A DNA stretch of 64,000 bases, taken from the NCBI GenBank assembly GCA_002086835.1, contig MVIG01000005.1:1-64000 (forward strand), in the 5' to 3' direction. This DNA comes from Mycolicibacterium porcinum (lineage in GTDB: Bacteria; Actinomycetota; Actinomycetes; Mycobacteriales; Mycobacteriaceae). Shown here in pieces: positions 30,389-34,810 of this stretch; within the stretch, counting starts at the first letter, position 1; each line of letters opens with the position of its first letter. The translations under genes were made by a program, and so were the position numbers. The notes beneath the pieces are model-generated. The model worked only from the letters and a program-made list of their open reading frames with translations, had not been told where the DNA came from and searched no databases.

Positions 30389-32188
30389 TTAGTAGAAGGC
30401 GCCATTGATCACCGGCTGGGTGATCATGCCCTTTTCCACACCCCACATGGTGGCGATCGTGCGGTACTCCCCGGTGTCCATCACGTGCTCCAGTGCCAGC
30501 CGCAACGACTCGGCCAGCCCCGAACCCTTGGCCACCGGCCAGCCGTAGGGCGCGGAGTCGAACACCTCGCCGGCCGGTTCCAACACCGGGCCGCTGAGCT
30601 TGATCGCGAATCCCGTGACCGGTGAATCGGCGGCCATGGCGTCGACCTCACCGGCGACCAGCGCGGCCGTCACCTCGTCCTGATGGGTGCGCACCACCTT
30701 CTCGACGGGCGGCAGCCCGGCCGCGACGCAGGCGTCCGACTTGGCCGGAATCCCCGTGGTGTCCTGAATCGTGCTGTACGCCACGCCCACTCGCAACCCG
30801 CAGGGAGATCCTGGGTCGGCCGACGTGCCTGCCCGTCGCGCCCACAGCGTCCCCGCCTGGAAATAGGTGACGAAGTCTGCGTGCTGCTCACGCTCGGCGG
30901 TGTCGGTGATCGAGGACATCCCGACGTTGAAATTGCCGTCCTGCACCGAGGGCAGGATCCCCTCGAACCCCGTCTCGCGGAATTCCGGCACCAACCCCAT
31001 CGTCCGGGCGACGGCCTTCATCAGATCGATGTCGAAGCCGACCAGCTCACCGCTGGAATTCTTGAACTCGTTGGGCGCGTACGGCACATTCACCCCGATC
31101 ACCAAACGCCCGGAGTCGCGGATGTCGGACGGTACCGTCTTGGCGATCTCGTCCACCGCTCCCGCAGGCGCCTGCACCGGACCGGATCCGGCTGAACCGA
31201 CCGCGTTGGCGACACGATCCGAACCGTCGTCGCGCAGCTGCCACACCCCCACCGCGCCCAGTGCTGCCACCACAACCGTGGCCCCGACGATCGCGGCCAC
31301 CTTCTTGGACACCCGCGGCCGGGTCGAAACGCGTTGCGCCGAATGCCGACCCGACCGCCCGGTGGCGCGGACCGGCACCGCGAGCGCGTCCTTTGCGGCA
31401 GCCGCCAGGGCCCCGCCGGACTGATAGCGCTTGGCCGGCTTCTTGGCCATGCCCTTGGCGATCACCTCATCGAATGCCGCCAGCCGCGGATCCTTGTCGG
31501 AGGGCCGCGGCGCCGGGGACACCATGTGCCCGGCGATCTGCTGCTCGAGGCTGTCCCCCGGGTACGGCCGGGCGCCGGTGAGGCATTCGTAGAGCACGCA
31601 GGCCAACGCGTAGATGTCCGAGCGCGGATCGGCCTTACCGCCCTCGAACCGCTCAGGAGCCATGTACGCCAACGTGCCCACGGTGCTGCCCGCGGTGGTG
31701 ATCCCCACGTCATCAGCGCAGCGGGCCAGTCCGAAATCGATGAGATAGACGAAGTCGTTGTCGGCGATCAGGATGTTCGAGGGTTTGACGTCGCGGTGCA
31801 CCAGCCCCACCCGGTGAGCGGCATCCAGCGCCATCCCCACCTGCTCGACCAGGCTCACCGCACGAGCGGGCTCCATCGGTTTGCCGGGATTGGCGAGCAT
31901 GGCGCCGAGGTTGCGGCCTTCGATCAACCGCATGTCCAGATAGAGTCGGCCGTCGATCTCGCCGTACCCGTGAATCGGCACCACGTGCGGATCGTTGACC
32001 CCGGCCGCGGCATGCGATTCCTGCCGGAACCGCTCCTGAAACGCGGCGTCCTGGGCCATGTGCGGCGGCAGCACCTTGAGCGCGACGATGCGGTCGGTGT
32101 CGGAATCGTAGGCCTGGTAAACCTCACCCATCCCGCCCCGACCGATCAGCTTCTGCAGCTGATAGTGCCCGAATGGGGTTGAATCCAC
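30389..32188 (-). CDS. Receptor Ser/Thr protein kinase with extracellular solute-binding domain
   Basis: 599 residues. An N-terminal Hanks-type kinase (about 8-265) has GRGGMGEVY (16-24), Lys38 of ALK, HRDVKPSN (131-138), DFG (151-153) and APE, all catalytic residues intact. After a basic juxtamembrane stretch comes one membrane helix (about 297-317). The outside part (about 360-595) is a family-3 periplasmic solute-binding fold: RLVIGVNVPYAPNEF, GELVGFDIDLMKAVA, GNFNVGMSSITDT, GEVDAMAADSPV. Family-3 domains bind amino acids or related polar solutes, so the protein should signal external solute to cytoplasmic phosphorylation. It differs from PASTA-type or PknH-type mycobacterial kinases. It is divergent from the flippase/pseudokinase gene by 246 bp. 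Confidence 0.93.
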   Translation of the reverse strand: MDSTPFGHYQLQKLIGRGGMGEVYQAYDSDTDRIVALKVLPPHMAQDAAFQERFRQESHAAAGVNDPHVVPIHGYGEIDGRLYLDMRLIEGRNLGAMLANPGKPMEPARAVSLVEQVGMALDAAHRVGLVHRDVKPSNILIADNDFVYLIDFGLARCADDVGITTAGSTVGTLAYMAPERFEGGKADPRSDIYALACVLYECLTGARPYPGDSLEQQIAGHMVSPAPRPSDKDPRLAAFDEVIAKGMAKKPAKRYQSGGALAAAAKDALAVPVRATGRSGRHSAQRVSTRPRVSKKVAAIVGATVVVAALGAVGVWQLRDDGSDRVANAVGSAGSGPVQAPAGAVDEIAKTVPSDIRDSGRLVIGVNVPYAPNEFKNSSGELVGFDIDLMKAVARTMGLVPEFRETGFEGILPSVQDGNFNVGMSSITDTAEREQHADFVTYFQAGTLWARRAGTSADPGSPCGLRVGVAYSTIQDTTGIPAKSDACVAAGLPPVEKVVRTHQDEVTAALVAGEVDAMAADSPVTGFAIKLSGPVLEPAGEVFDSAPYGWPVAKGSGLAESLRLALEHVMDTGEYRTIATMWGVEKGMITQPVINGAFY

Positions 32189-32434: not shown

Positions 32435-34810
32435 ATGCGCGTTGACGGACGGGACATCACCGTCACCGGCAGCCTCCTGCAACCACCGACCCGACGCACC
32501 AACGACATCCTGCGTCTGATCCTGGCCGCGATCTTCCTGGCCACCGTCATCACCAGCTCGCTGATCACCCGCTACGAATGGGTCGCGCTGGAGCGCTCCA
32601 TCTCCGAGATCGTCGGCGTGCTGACACCCACCCAGTCCAATCTGGTGTACCTGGCGTACGGCATCGCGATCCTGGCCCTGCCGTTCGTGATCCTGGTCAG
32701 CCTGGTGCTGGGACGGCAATGGAAACTGTTGGGCGCCTACGCGGCTGCCGCGCTGATCACCATGCTGTCGTTGTCGATCACCGCCAACGGCATCGCCGCG
32801 CCGAAGTGGCATTTCGATCTGTCGGACCGGCTCAGCTCCCAGCTTTCGCAGTTCCTCGACGACCCGCGCTGGATCGGCATGCTGGCCGCGGTGCTCACCG
32901 TTTCCGGGCCGTGGCTGTCCCGGCGGCTGCGCCGCTGGTGGTGGACGCTGCTGCTGGCGTTCGTCCCGATCCACCTGGTGGTCAGCGCCGTCGTGCCGGC
33001 CCGCTCGCTGCTGGGTTTGACCGCGGGCTGGTTCGTCGGCGCCCTGGTGGTGTGGCTCGTCGGCACCCCCGCCCTCGAAGTCCCGCTCGACGGCGCCGTA
33101 CGTGCGCTGGCGCGACGCGGGTTCGTCGTCTCGGCGTTCACCGTGGTCCGTCCGGCCGGCGCAGGCCCGCTGACGCTCACCGCACAGTCCCCGGATCCGG
33201 ACTCCAGCGCCGTCGTCGAGCTCTATGGCCCCAATCAACAGAGCGGCGGCGCGGTGCGGCAGGTGTGGCGCAAACTGCGGCTGCGCTCCAATGAGACCGC
33301 ACCCCTGCAGACCTCGATGCGCCGCGCCGTCGAGCACCGAGCCCTGATGGCCATCGCGATCGGCGACCTGGGCCTGGCGAGCACGTCGACCATGTCGGTG
33401 GCCGCCCTGGACCGCGGCTGGACGCTGTACGCGCACAACCGCAAACGCGGCATCCCGCTGGACCAGAGCACCGACGAAACCACCGTCGGGCGGGTGTGGA
33501 ACGCGCTGCGCACCCTGCACGACCATCAGATCTCCCACGGAGATCTGCGCAGCAAGGAGATCACCGTCGACGACGGCGCCGTGCTGTTCGGCGGGTTCGG
33601 CAGTGCCGAATACGGCGCCACCGACGCGCAACTGCAGTCCGACATCGCCCAACTGCTCGTCACCACCACGGCGCTGTACGACCCGAAGTCGGCGGTCACC
33701 GCGGCGATCGACGCGTTCGGTCGTGACACCGTGCTCACCGCGTCACGACGGCTGACCAAAGCCGCGGTGCCGTCCCGGGTCCGCGACGCCGTCCCCGACG
33801 CCAAAGAAGTCATGGCCGCCGCCCGCGACGAGGTGAAACGCCAGACCGGTGCCGACCAGATCCAGGCCGAGACCATCACCCGGTTCACCCGCACCCAGGT
33901 GATCCAGCTGGTGCTGCTGGTGGCGCTGGTCTACGTGGCCTACCCGTTCATCAGCACGGTGCCGACGTTCTTCTCCGAACTGCGCACCGTGGACTGGTCG
34001 TGGGCACTGCTCGGGCTGACCGTCTCGGCGCTGACGTATGTGGGTGCGGCGGCCGCGCTGTGGGCGTGCGCCGACGGGCTGGTGAGTTTCCGCAACCTCT
34101 CGATCATGCAGGTGGCCAACACCTTTGCCGCCACCACCACGCCTGCCGGCGTCGGCGGCCTGGCCCTGAGCACCCGGTTCCTGCAGAAGGGCGGGCTGAG
34201 CACTGCGCGCGCCACCGCCGCGGTGGCCCTGCAGCAGTCGGTGCAGGTGATCGTGCACGTGATCCTGCTGATCCTGTTCAGCACCATGGCCGGCGCCTCG
34301 GCCGACCTGTCACACTTCGTACCCAGCTCCACGATCCTGTACCTGATCGCCGGGCTCGCGCTCGGACTCGTCGGGGCGTTTCTGGCCGTGCCCAAACTGC
34401 GGCGCTGGCTGTCCTCCTCATTGCGCCCCAAGCTTCAAGAGGTCGGCGACGACCTGATCAAACTGGCCCGCGAGCCGCAACGGCTGGCGCTGATCGTGCT
34501 GGGCGCCGCGGGCACCACCCTCGGTGCGGCCCTGGCCCTGTGGGCCAGCGTCGAGGCATTCGGCGGAACCACCTCATTCGTCACCGTCACCGTCGTCACC
34601 ATGGTCGGCGGCACCCTGGCCTCGGCGGCCCCCACCCCCGGCGGTGTGGGCGCCGTCGAGGCGGCCCTGATCGGTGGTCTGGCCGCGTTCGGCGTGCCCG
34701 CCGCGATCGGGGTGCCCGCGGTACTGCTCTACCGGGTGCTGACCTGCTGGTTGCCGGTGTTCATCGGCTGGCCGGTGATGCGCTGGCTCACGAAGAACGA
34801 CATGATCTGA
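32435..34810 (+). CDS. Polytopic membrane protein: degenerate kinase domain plus flippase-like (LPG-synthase TM) domain
   Basis: 791 residues. About 1-205: six hydrophobic helices. About 230-470: a cytoplasmic kinase-like domain with RVWNALRTLHDHQISHGDLR standing for the catalytic loop (HGDLRSKE) and VLFGGFGSAEY in place of DFG; the glycine loop and catalytic lysine are not recognisable, so it is probably a pseudokinase. About 490-790: eight helices with ATTTTPAGVGGLALSTRFL and ASAAPTPGGVGAVEAALIGG, the signatures of the UPF0104/AglD flippase-like family. Such proteins move or modify lipids. It is divergent from the receptor kinase gene, sharing the intergenic region. A functional link is inference. 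Confidence 0.85.
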   Translation: MRVDGRDITVTGSLLQPPTRRTNDILRLILAAIFLATVITSSLITRYEWVALERSISEIVGVLTPTQSNLVYLAYGIAILALPFVILVSLVLGRQWKLLGAYAAAALITMLSLSITANGIAAPKWHFDLSDRLSSQLSQFLDDPRWIGMLAAVLTVSGPWLSRRLRRWWWTLLLAFVPIHLVVSAVVPARSLLGLTAGWFVGALVVWLVGTPALEVPLDGAVRALARRGFVVSAFTVVRPAGAGPLTLTAQSPDPDSSAVVELYGPNQQSGGAVRQVWRKLRLRSNETAPLQTSMRRAVEHRALMAIAIGDLGLASTSTMSVAALDRGWTLYAHNRKRGIPLDQSTDETTVGRVWNALRTLHDHQISHGDLRSKEITVDDGAVLFGGFGSAEYGATDAQLQSDIAQLLVTTTALYDPKSAVTAAIDAFGRDTVLTASRRLTKAAVPSRVRDAVPDAKEVMAAARDEVKRQTGADQIQAETITRFTRTQVIQLVLLVALVYVAYPFISTVPTFFSELRTVDWSWALLGLTVSALTYVGAAAALWACADGLVSFRNLSIMQVANTFAATTTPAGVGGLALSTRFLQKGGLSTARATAAVALQQSVQVIVHVILLILFSTMAGASADLSHFVPSSTILYLIAGLALGLVGAFLAVPKLRRWLSSSLRPKLQEVGDDLIKLAREPQRLALIVLGAAGTTLGAALALWASVEAFGGTTSFVTVTVVTMVGGTLASAAPTPGGVGAVEAALIGGLAAFGVPAAIGVPAVLLYRVLTCWLPVFIGWPVMRWLTKNDMI

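Follow-up and report, generated by a model that had tools for sequence, protein, structure and literature searches.

The StpK7-type receptor kinase and the kinase-fused flippase of a Mycolicibacterium porcinum locus: neighbours with probably separate histories

Receptor kinases of the PknB/PknE type join a cytoplasmic Hanks kinase to a PASTA or thioredoxin-like sensor, and the mycobacterial flippase MurJ (MviN) carries a cytoplasmic pseudokinase; MurJ and FhaA exemplify how such mycobacterial pseudokinases recruit partners after phosphorylation. We analysed a 64,000-nucleotide stretch of Mycolicibacterium porcinum DNA (MVIG01000005.1, hereafter the window; contig C48 of a 6.96 Mb genome), in which the gene of a StpK7-type receptor kinase lies back to back with that of a flippase containing a kinase-like domain. 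In excerpts of the literature, the fusion of a kinase to a solute-binding protein (SBP) in StpK7 was already noted in 2018, and the activating signal of bacterial receptor kinases was called an outstanding question (both PMC6069109). Similarly, StpK7 of M. smegmatis (MSMEG_1200) is described in such excerpts as part of the island MSMEG_1191-1200 (PMC13355554), which is silenced when StpK7 phosphorylates MSMEG_1198, favouring phage TM4 (PMC13355554 and PMC13314858, citing Li et al. 2023), and a phage protein has been matched to the StpK7 kinase domain (PMC12363180). In the GlnH-GlnX-PknG system, as excerpted from PMC6069109, a family-3 amino-acid-binding protein likewise senses for a mycobacterial Ser/Thr kinase, but sensor, transducer and kinase are there three proteins, whereas StpK7 is a single one.

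Comparison of the locus with its relatives argues that these neighbouring genes have separate histories, StpK7 being a solute receptor kinase derived from an importer and the flippase an MprF-type protein fused to a decayed kinase. We put the probability of this reading at roughly 0.6. The features on which it draws are the following (aa, amino acid positions).

30389..32188, minus strand: StpK7-type receptor Ser/Thr kinase, 599 aa, GTG start (NCBIfam NF052427 and Pfam)
31394..32164, minus strand: cytoplasmic Hanks kinase domain, about aa 9-265, catalytic residues intact (Pfam, match to PknE 2h34, alignment)
31232..31312, minus strand: lone transmembrane span, aa 293-319 (hydropathy)
30440..31105, minus strand: extracellular family-3 solute-binding domain, aa 362-583 (Pfam SBP_bac_3 and likeness to an importer SBP)
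32189..32434, no strand: divergent intergenic region, 246 bp (alignment of 17 adjacent loci)
32435..34810, plus strand: flippase with internal kinase-like domain, 791 aa, ATG start (Pfam, NCBIfam)
33068..33883, plus strand: kinase-like (pseudokinase) domain, aa 212-483, set between the N-terminal spans and the flippase domain
33536..33550, plus strand: HGDLR motif, aa 368-372, at the catalytic-loop position
33593..33601, plus strand: GFG replacing DFG, aa 387-389
33899..34768, plus strand: LPG_synthase_TM (MprF-type) flippase domain, aa 489-778 (Pfam)

The kinase scored 1094.7 bits against the NCBIfam model NF052427 (StpK7MSMEG_1200; cut-off 900), its residues 1-598 aligning with positions 1-600 of the 601 in the model. 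By this match it is of the known StpK7/MSMEG_1200 type, whose full-length architecture it shares. Pfam placed Pkinase at aa 9-219, PK_Tyr_Ser-Thr at aa 10-255 and SBP_bac_3 at aa 362-583, and the solved structure closest to the kinase domain was PknE (2h34, over aa 2-271, E 3.9e-89). In a 25-row kinase alignment, residues G16, G18, G19, G21, V23, K38, H131-D133, N138, D151-G153 and P178-E179 were invariant and A177 was kept in at least 90% of the rows, which gives the glycine loop, beta3 Lys, HRD, Asn, DFG and APE of an active Hanks kinase. An earlier reading of the window, made from the sequence only, had proposed an intact receptor-like Hanks kinase with a family-3 solute-binding ectodomain, and the model matches and invariant catalytic residues bear this out. 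The cytoplasmic Hanks kinase is shared with the PknB/PknE-type receptor kinases, whereas the sensor, a solute-binding domain, is unlike theirs. A new receptor type was ruled out, given that NCBIfam names StpK7 and that the fusion has been in print since 2018. Nor was the kinase kept as a defence gene: in a PADLOC scan of five window proteins its matches (PD-T4-6 and others) covered the kinase domain, and no defence evidence was taken from them. Among the matches listed, in a scan possibly without the window's own genome, the closest named kinase was that of Mycolicibacterium senegalense (94%).

SBP_bac_3 domains occur at 11 places in the window genome, StpK7 included; eight of the others were compared with the StpK7 ectodomain (aa 345-598) and two were left out. 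One stood apart, with 52% identity over 254 residues: the SBP of an importer on contig C17, whose gene precedes those of a permease and an ATPase. The remaining seven were 24-31% identical, one of them over just 85 residues, and the figure for the own-genome SBP that adjoins a PknG-like kinase (L005) was 25%. A tree built from 42 solute-binding domains united every kinase ectodomain in a single clade (SH-aLRT 100), placed amid binding proteins of the importer.

In some relatives kinase and importer are encoded together. The order SBP-permease-ATPase-StpK7, on one strand, was found in G012, G056, G084, G165 and G167 (loci L350-L354; G numbers denote the 198 genomes of a genus sample, used alike for flippase, StpK7 and importer counts), in G041 (L364), whose kinase is cut off by a contig end, and in a metagenome-assembled Mycobacterium (importer-StpK7 operon at L159:7232-11773). 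The kinase-domain tree placed these operon-type kinases outside a clade (support 99) of 23 other StpK7 rows, G070 being yet more basal, a placement that fits an origin of StpK7 beside the importer. In contrast, the ectodomain tree placed them inside the StpK7 ectodomains. A second receptor kinase, present in G109 (L355:5234-6967) and G087 (L356:4298-6043), was 63-65% identical to StpK7 in the ectodomain and 35-36% in the kinase domain; it sat inside the StpK7 ectodomains in the ectodomain tree and joined other kinases as a long branch in the kinase tree. The StpK7 sensor has therefore been combined with a second kinase. Both the kinship of the StpK7 ectodomain to one particular importer and the appearance of that ectodomain on another kinase are new here, and they suggest an evolutionary route in which an importer binding protein became a kinase sensor and was reused with a second kinase.

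AncQR and other amino-acid-binding proteins, aligned with StpK7, served to assign its ligand-site positions. R433, D521 and Y370 were invariant in StpK7 (44/44), the importer SBPs (8/8) and the alternative kinases (2/2). N367 was kept in 44/44 StpK7 and in seven of eight importer SBPs, the exception being the window genome's own SBP (Asp), and is Glu in the alternative kinases. We take R433 to be the Arg for the alpha-carboxylate and D521 the Asp for the alpha-amino group, assuming these roles and the GlnH numbering; so assigned, the carboxylate Arg and amino Asp that mark family-3 amino-acid SBPs are present in the StpK7 ectodomain. The ligand of StpK7 is thus likely to be an amino acid or a close relative, and probably one common to the importer. 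This makes it directly testable, by setting the ectodomain against the binding protein of one particular importer.

Full-length StpK7 was found in 92 of the 198 genomes and the flippase in 186; 153 genomes matched the StpK7 query at 1e-100, those beyond the 92 matching over the kinase domain or in pieces. The importer permease was matched in 112 genomes at E 1e-70, with at least 70% identity in 106 of them. It was present in 85 of the 92 genomes with StpK7 versus 21 of the 106 without (Fisher 5e-27, ancestry ignored), G041 being tallied among the latter despite StpK7 pieces on two contigs. When traced on a tree of flippases from 151 genomes, StpK7 requires 13 changes and the importer seven. 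Among ten independent pairs drawn on the supported branches of this tree, one to three agreed, depending on the random pairing, none disagreed and the rest were equal in importer, which is not significant. As the tree-based pairs did not uphold the Fisher value, co-occurrence was rejected as independent proof, and the importer link therefore rests on the ectodomain kinship and the operon. Together, the comparison of relatives points to the importer, more than the flippase, as the evolutionary partner of StpK7.

On the reading of separate histories, the Venus-flytrap ectodomain would have been taken over from the SBP of a polar-amino-acid-type ABC importer and joined through one span to a Ser/Thr kinase. 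StpK7 would then most likely report the outside availability of the solute class that this importer takes up. We infer that ligand closure outside may alter dimerisation and, in turn, autophosphorylation. The downstream target in M. smegmatis would be the regulator MSMEG_1198, as excerpts of the published work have it.

Two side observations concern the distribution of StpK7. A StpK7-like sequence is carried by a plasmid of M. frederiksbergense (NZ_CP038797.1, L168), and the two halves of another (G096:C2:185164-186959) match in different reading frames, so that this copy may be broken.

The flippase is nearly universal in the genus sample and StpK7 is patchy. The co-occurrence of the two, which the sequence-only reading had offered as a check, held in one direction: the flippase was found in 91 of the 92 StpK7 genomes, the sole case without a match being G070, which is 73% complete. 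It was however also found in 95 of the 106 genomes without StpK7, and its function therefore does not need StpK7. Strict co-evolution of the two was discarded, because with the flippase in 186 of 198 genomes the Fisher value of 0.005 (ancestry ignored) says little.

Linkage could be evaluated in 67 of the 92 StpK7 genomes, those with a listed flippase place. The two genes were adjacent in 12 (211-247 bp), 1.6-12.0 kb apart in 19, far apart on the same contig in 11, and on other contigs in 25, many of these genomes being drafts. The further 25 StpK7 genomes include 24 with a flippase match lacking a listed place, one of which, G008, is linked at about 1.6 kb. Orientation was divergent in 31/31 linked cases, which are not independent; random placement would be expected to bring the genes within 12.1 kb in about 0.4% per genome, the genomes likewise not being independent. 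In a 52-row StpK7 tree, the adjacent rows belonged to one clade of 19 (support 100; 16 adjacent, three with 1.9-3.6 kb between), and the other nearby cases were spread over several other clades. The neighbourhood is thus probably old, since linked cases occur in several StpK7 clades and all 31 are divergent. Direct adjacency is, on this tree, a property of one clade; among named relatives it was seen in senegalense, septicum, wolinskyi, setense and peregrinum. The constant orientation and the spread of linkage over several clades weigh against entirely separate histories.

A unit conserved in the genus was nevertheless not recovered. Adjacency in 12 and closeness within 12.1 kb in 31 of 67 genomes falls short of adjacency in most relatives holding both genes, and in the other 36 the genes lie far apart or on other contigs. 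The dedicated nutrient-to-envelope pair of the sequence-only reading is accordingly not supported as it was stated, with adjacency in a single StpK7 clade and the flippase common where StpK7 is missing. StpK7 may signal to the flippase, as one of several hypotheses would have it. In the full form of this hypothesis, a nutrient sensed by StpK7 would adjust envelope lipid traffic to supply, through phosphorylation of the flippase pseudokinase or docking on it. That form appears unlikely. In its favour are the 31 linked cases, always divergent and spread over several clades, the further linkage in G008, outside the 67, the near-constant presence of the flippase in StpK7 genomes and the precedent of MurJ-FhaA. 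Against it, besides the 36 unlinked genomes and the flippases without StpK7, the genes of 19 linked cases are separated by 1.6-12.0 kb, and at L137, L146, L148 and L153 a DUF4407 gene lies there, on the kinase strand. DUF4407 as the true partner was also considered and dropped, being found by tblastn in four of 80 named loci (two of these also run with Pfam) and not in five adjacent-type genomes, a search with no positive control.

The named-loci scan listed the best 80 loci, M. smegmatis not among these; gene distances were taken from 35 named loci, L134-L168 (L166 is at a contig edge and some flanks are short). The flippase lay at most 10 kb from StpK7 in 13 of the 35 and was adjacent in five; a relative of the window's glycosyltransferase gene lay within 10 kb about as often (11 of 35). 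These counts, and the absence or interruption of linkage in many genomes, suit the view that the divergent neighbourhood was simply inherited and carries no functional meaning. The orientation kept in every linked case, dependent as these cases are, tells against that view, which we consider possible at somewhat less than an even chance. It and the other alternatives concern the link between the genes and the reading of separate histories concerns what each gene is; their likelihoods may overlap.

The arrangement itself is as the sequence-only reading described it, with kinase (-) and flippase (+) genes back to back and 246 bp between them. Aligning the 17 adjacent loci showed sequence blocks conserved close to either gene: on the flippase side TACCTT, which precedes the gene start by 50 bp in 16 of 17 rows, and on the kinase side G[TC]TAC[AC]TCAC. 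The middle is less conserved, and that of L040 differs markedly. Such blocks on both sides of a common upstream region could reflect a link that is regulatory only, the genes of the adjacent clade being co-regulated with no contact between the proteins. Two separate promoters would however fit blocks near each gene and a varying middle equally well, and a consensus scan of the intergenic region gave no promoter-like and no terminator-like site, so that we regard co-regulation as improbable.

On the flippase side, the LPG_synthase_TM domain was matched at 98.7 bits (cut-off 33.4). Against the bifunctional MprF model NF033480 the protein scored 43.6 bits (cut-off 600), over aa 510-779 only and thus not full length. 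Unlike MprF, the lysyl-phosphatidylglycerol flippase/synthase, it had no synthase domain matched by Pfam or NCBIfam, and it carries N-terminal spans and a kinase-like domain ahead of the flippase domain. The soluble part of about 265 residues after these spans gave a sub-threshold Pkinase match, in which the beta3 Lys is replaced by Glu, HGD is kept and DFG reads GFG. Among 56 family rows the beta3 Lys and the DFG Asp were absent in all and the HxD Asp was kept in 49; among 149 genus rows none had Lys at 262, two had Asp at 387 and 145 kept the HGDLR Asp. Kinase homology with loss of catalytic residues, and intact homologues at the same place, mark the domain as a probable pseudokinase, and the degenerate kinase that the sequence-only reading had seen in HGDLR and GFG was confirmed to this extent. 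The AlphaFold model of the whole flippase was poor; Foldseek gave no match at E <=0.001, and the 50 weaker matches listed were kinases or kinase complexes.

Fusions of flippase and kinase occur widely across Actinomycetota. All four of the Lys, HRD, Asn and DFG motifs are kept in eight of the 51 rows of a tree, which come from other actinobacterial families (L085, L086, L104, L105, L108, L109, L112 and L120), and for this reason the mycobacterial domain has the look of a Bud32/RIO-like kinase that has decayed. Literature searches found no publication on such a fusion, and a flippase-kinase family with intact and decayed members is new here. Like MurJ, the window flippase combines a flippase with a pseudokinase, but it belongs to the LPG_synthase_TM family and its kinase-like domain resembles Bud32/RIO kinases. 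The Rv0585c gene of M. tuberculosis presumably encodes its orthologue; excerpts of the literature mention Rv0585c as a two-hybrid candidate connected with lipid export and as carrying a mutation whose role is unclear. On the preferred reading, the flippase would be a nearly universal mycobacterial envelope protein, and its pseudokinase, having lost catalytic residues, would probably serve as a regulatory or docking module that controls or anchors the flippase.

A wider hypothesis, to which we give a slim chance, is that lipid flippases coupled to a kinase form a family of their own, widespread in actinobacteria and so far unrecognised, to which the fusion belongs. Members with an intact kinase would phosphorylate their own flippase domain or a lipid-linked substrate, for which WbdD, which phosphorylates a glycan end, offers an analogy, and the decayed mycobacterial kinase would be a receptor for trans-acting kinases, StpK7 being one of these in the window's clade. 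If so, an amino-acid receptor born from an importer would set lipid flipping in that clade. Since some actinobacterial lineages have kept the kinase-like domain intact and in others it has decayed, comparing the two forms offers a way to study it.

The surroundings of StpK7 in the window, a PknH_C-domain gene and the flippase, differ from the island MSMEG_1191-1200 described for M. smegmatis in excerpts of PMC13355554. The PknH_C-type gene (29695-30375, plus strand, 109.1 bits) is convergent with the kinase gene, 13 bp from its end, and homologues 50-87% identical follow StpK7 in L134, L135, L136, L137, L160 and L161. In ten flippase stretches (L216-L225, nine with no StpK7 in the stretch), BLAST with the window genes, flippase aside, matched only L222; in L216-L219, judged by starts, a shared gene for about 870-895 aa lies downstream in convergent orientation. 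Further out in the window, a row on the minus strand (25317-28986) encodes a group 1 glycosyltransferase, an unassigned protein and a GH130-type protein, and downstream of the flippase a SNF2-family helicase gene (34972-36921, plus strand) strongly matched the PADLOC models DrmD and DpdE.

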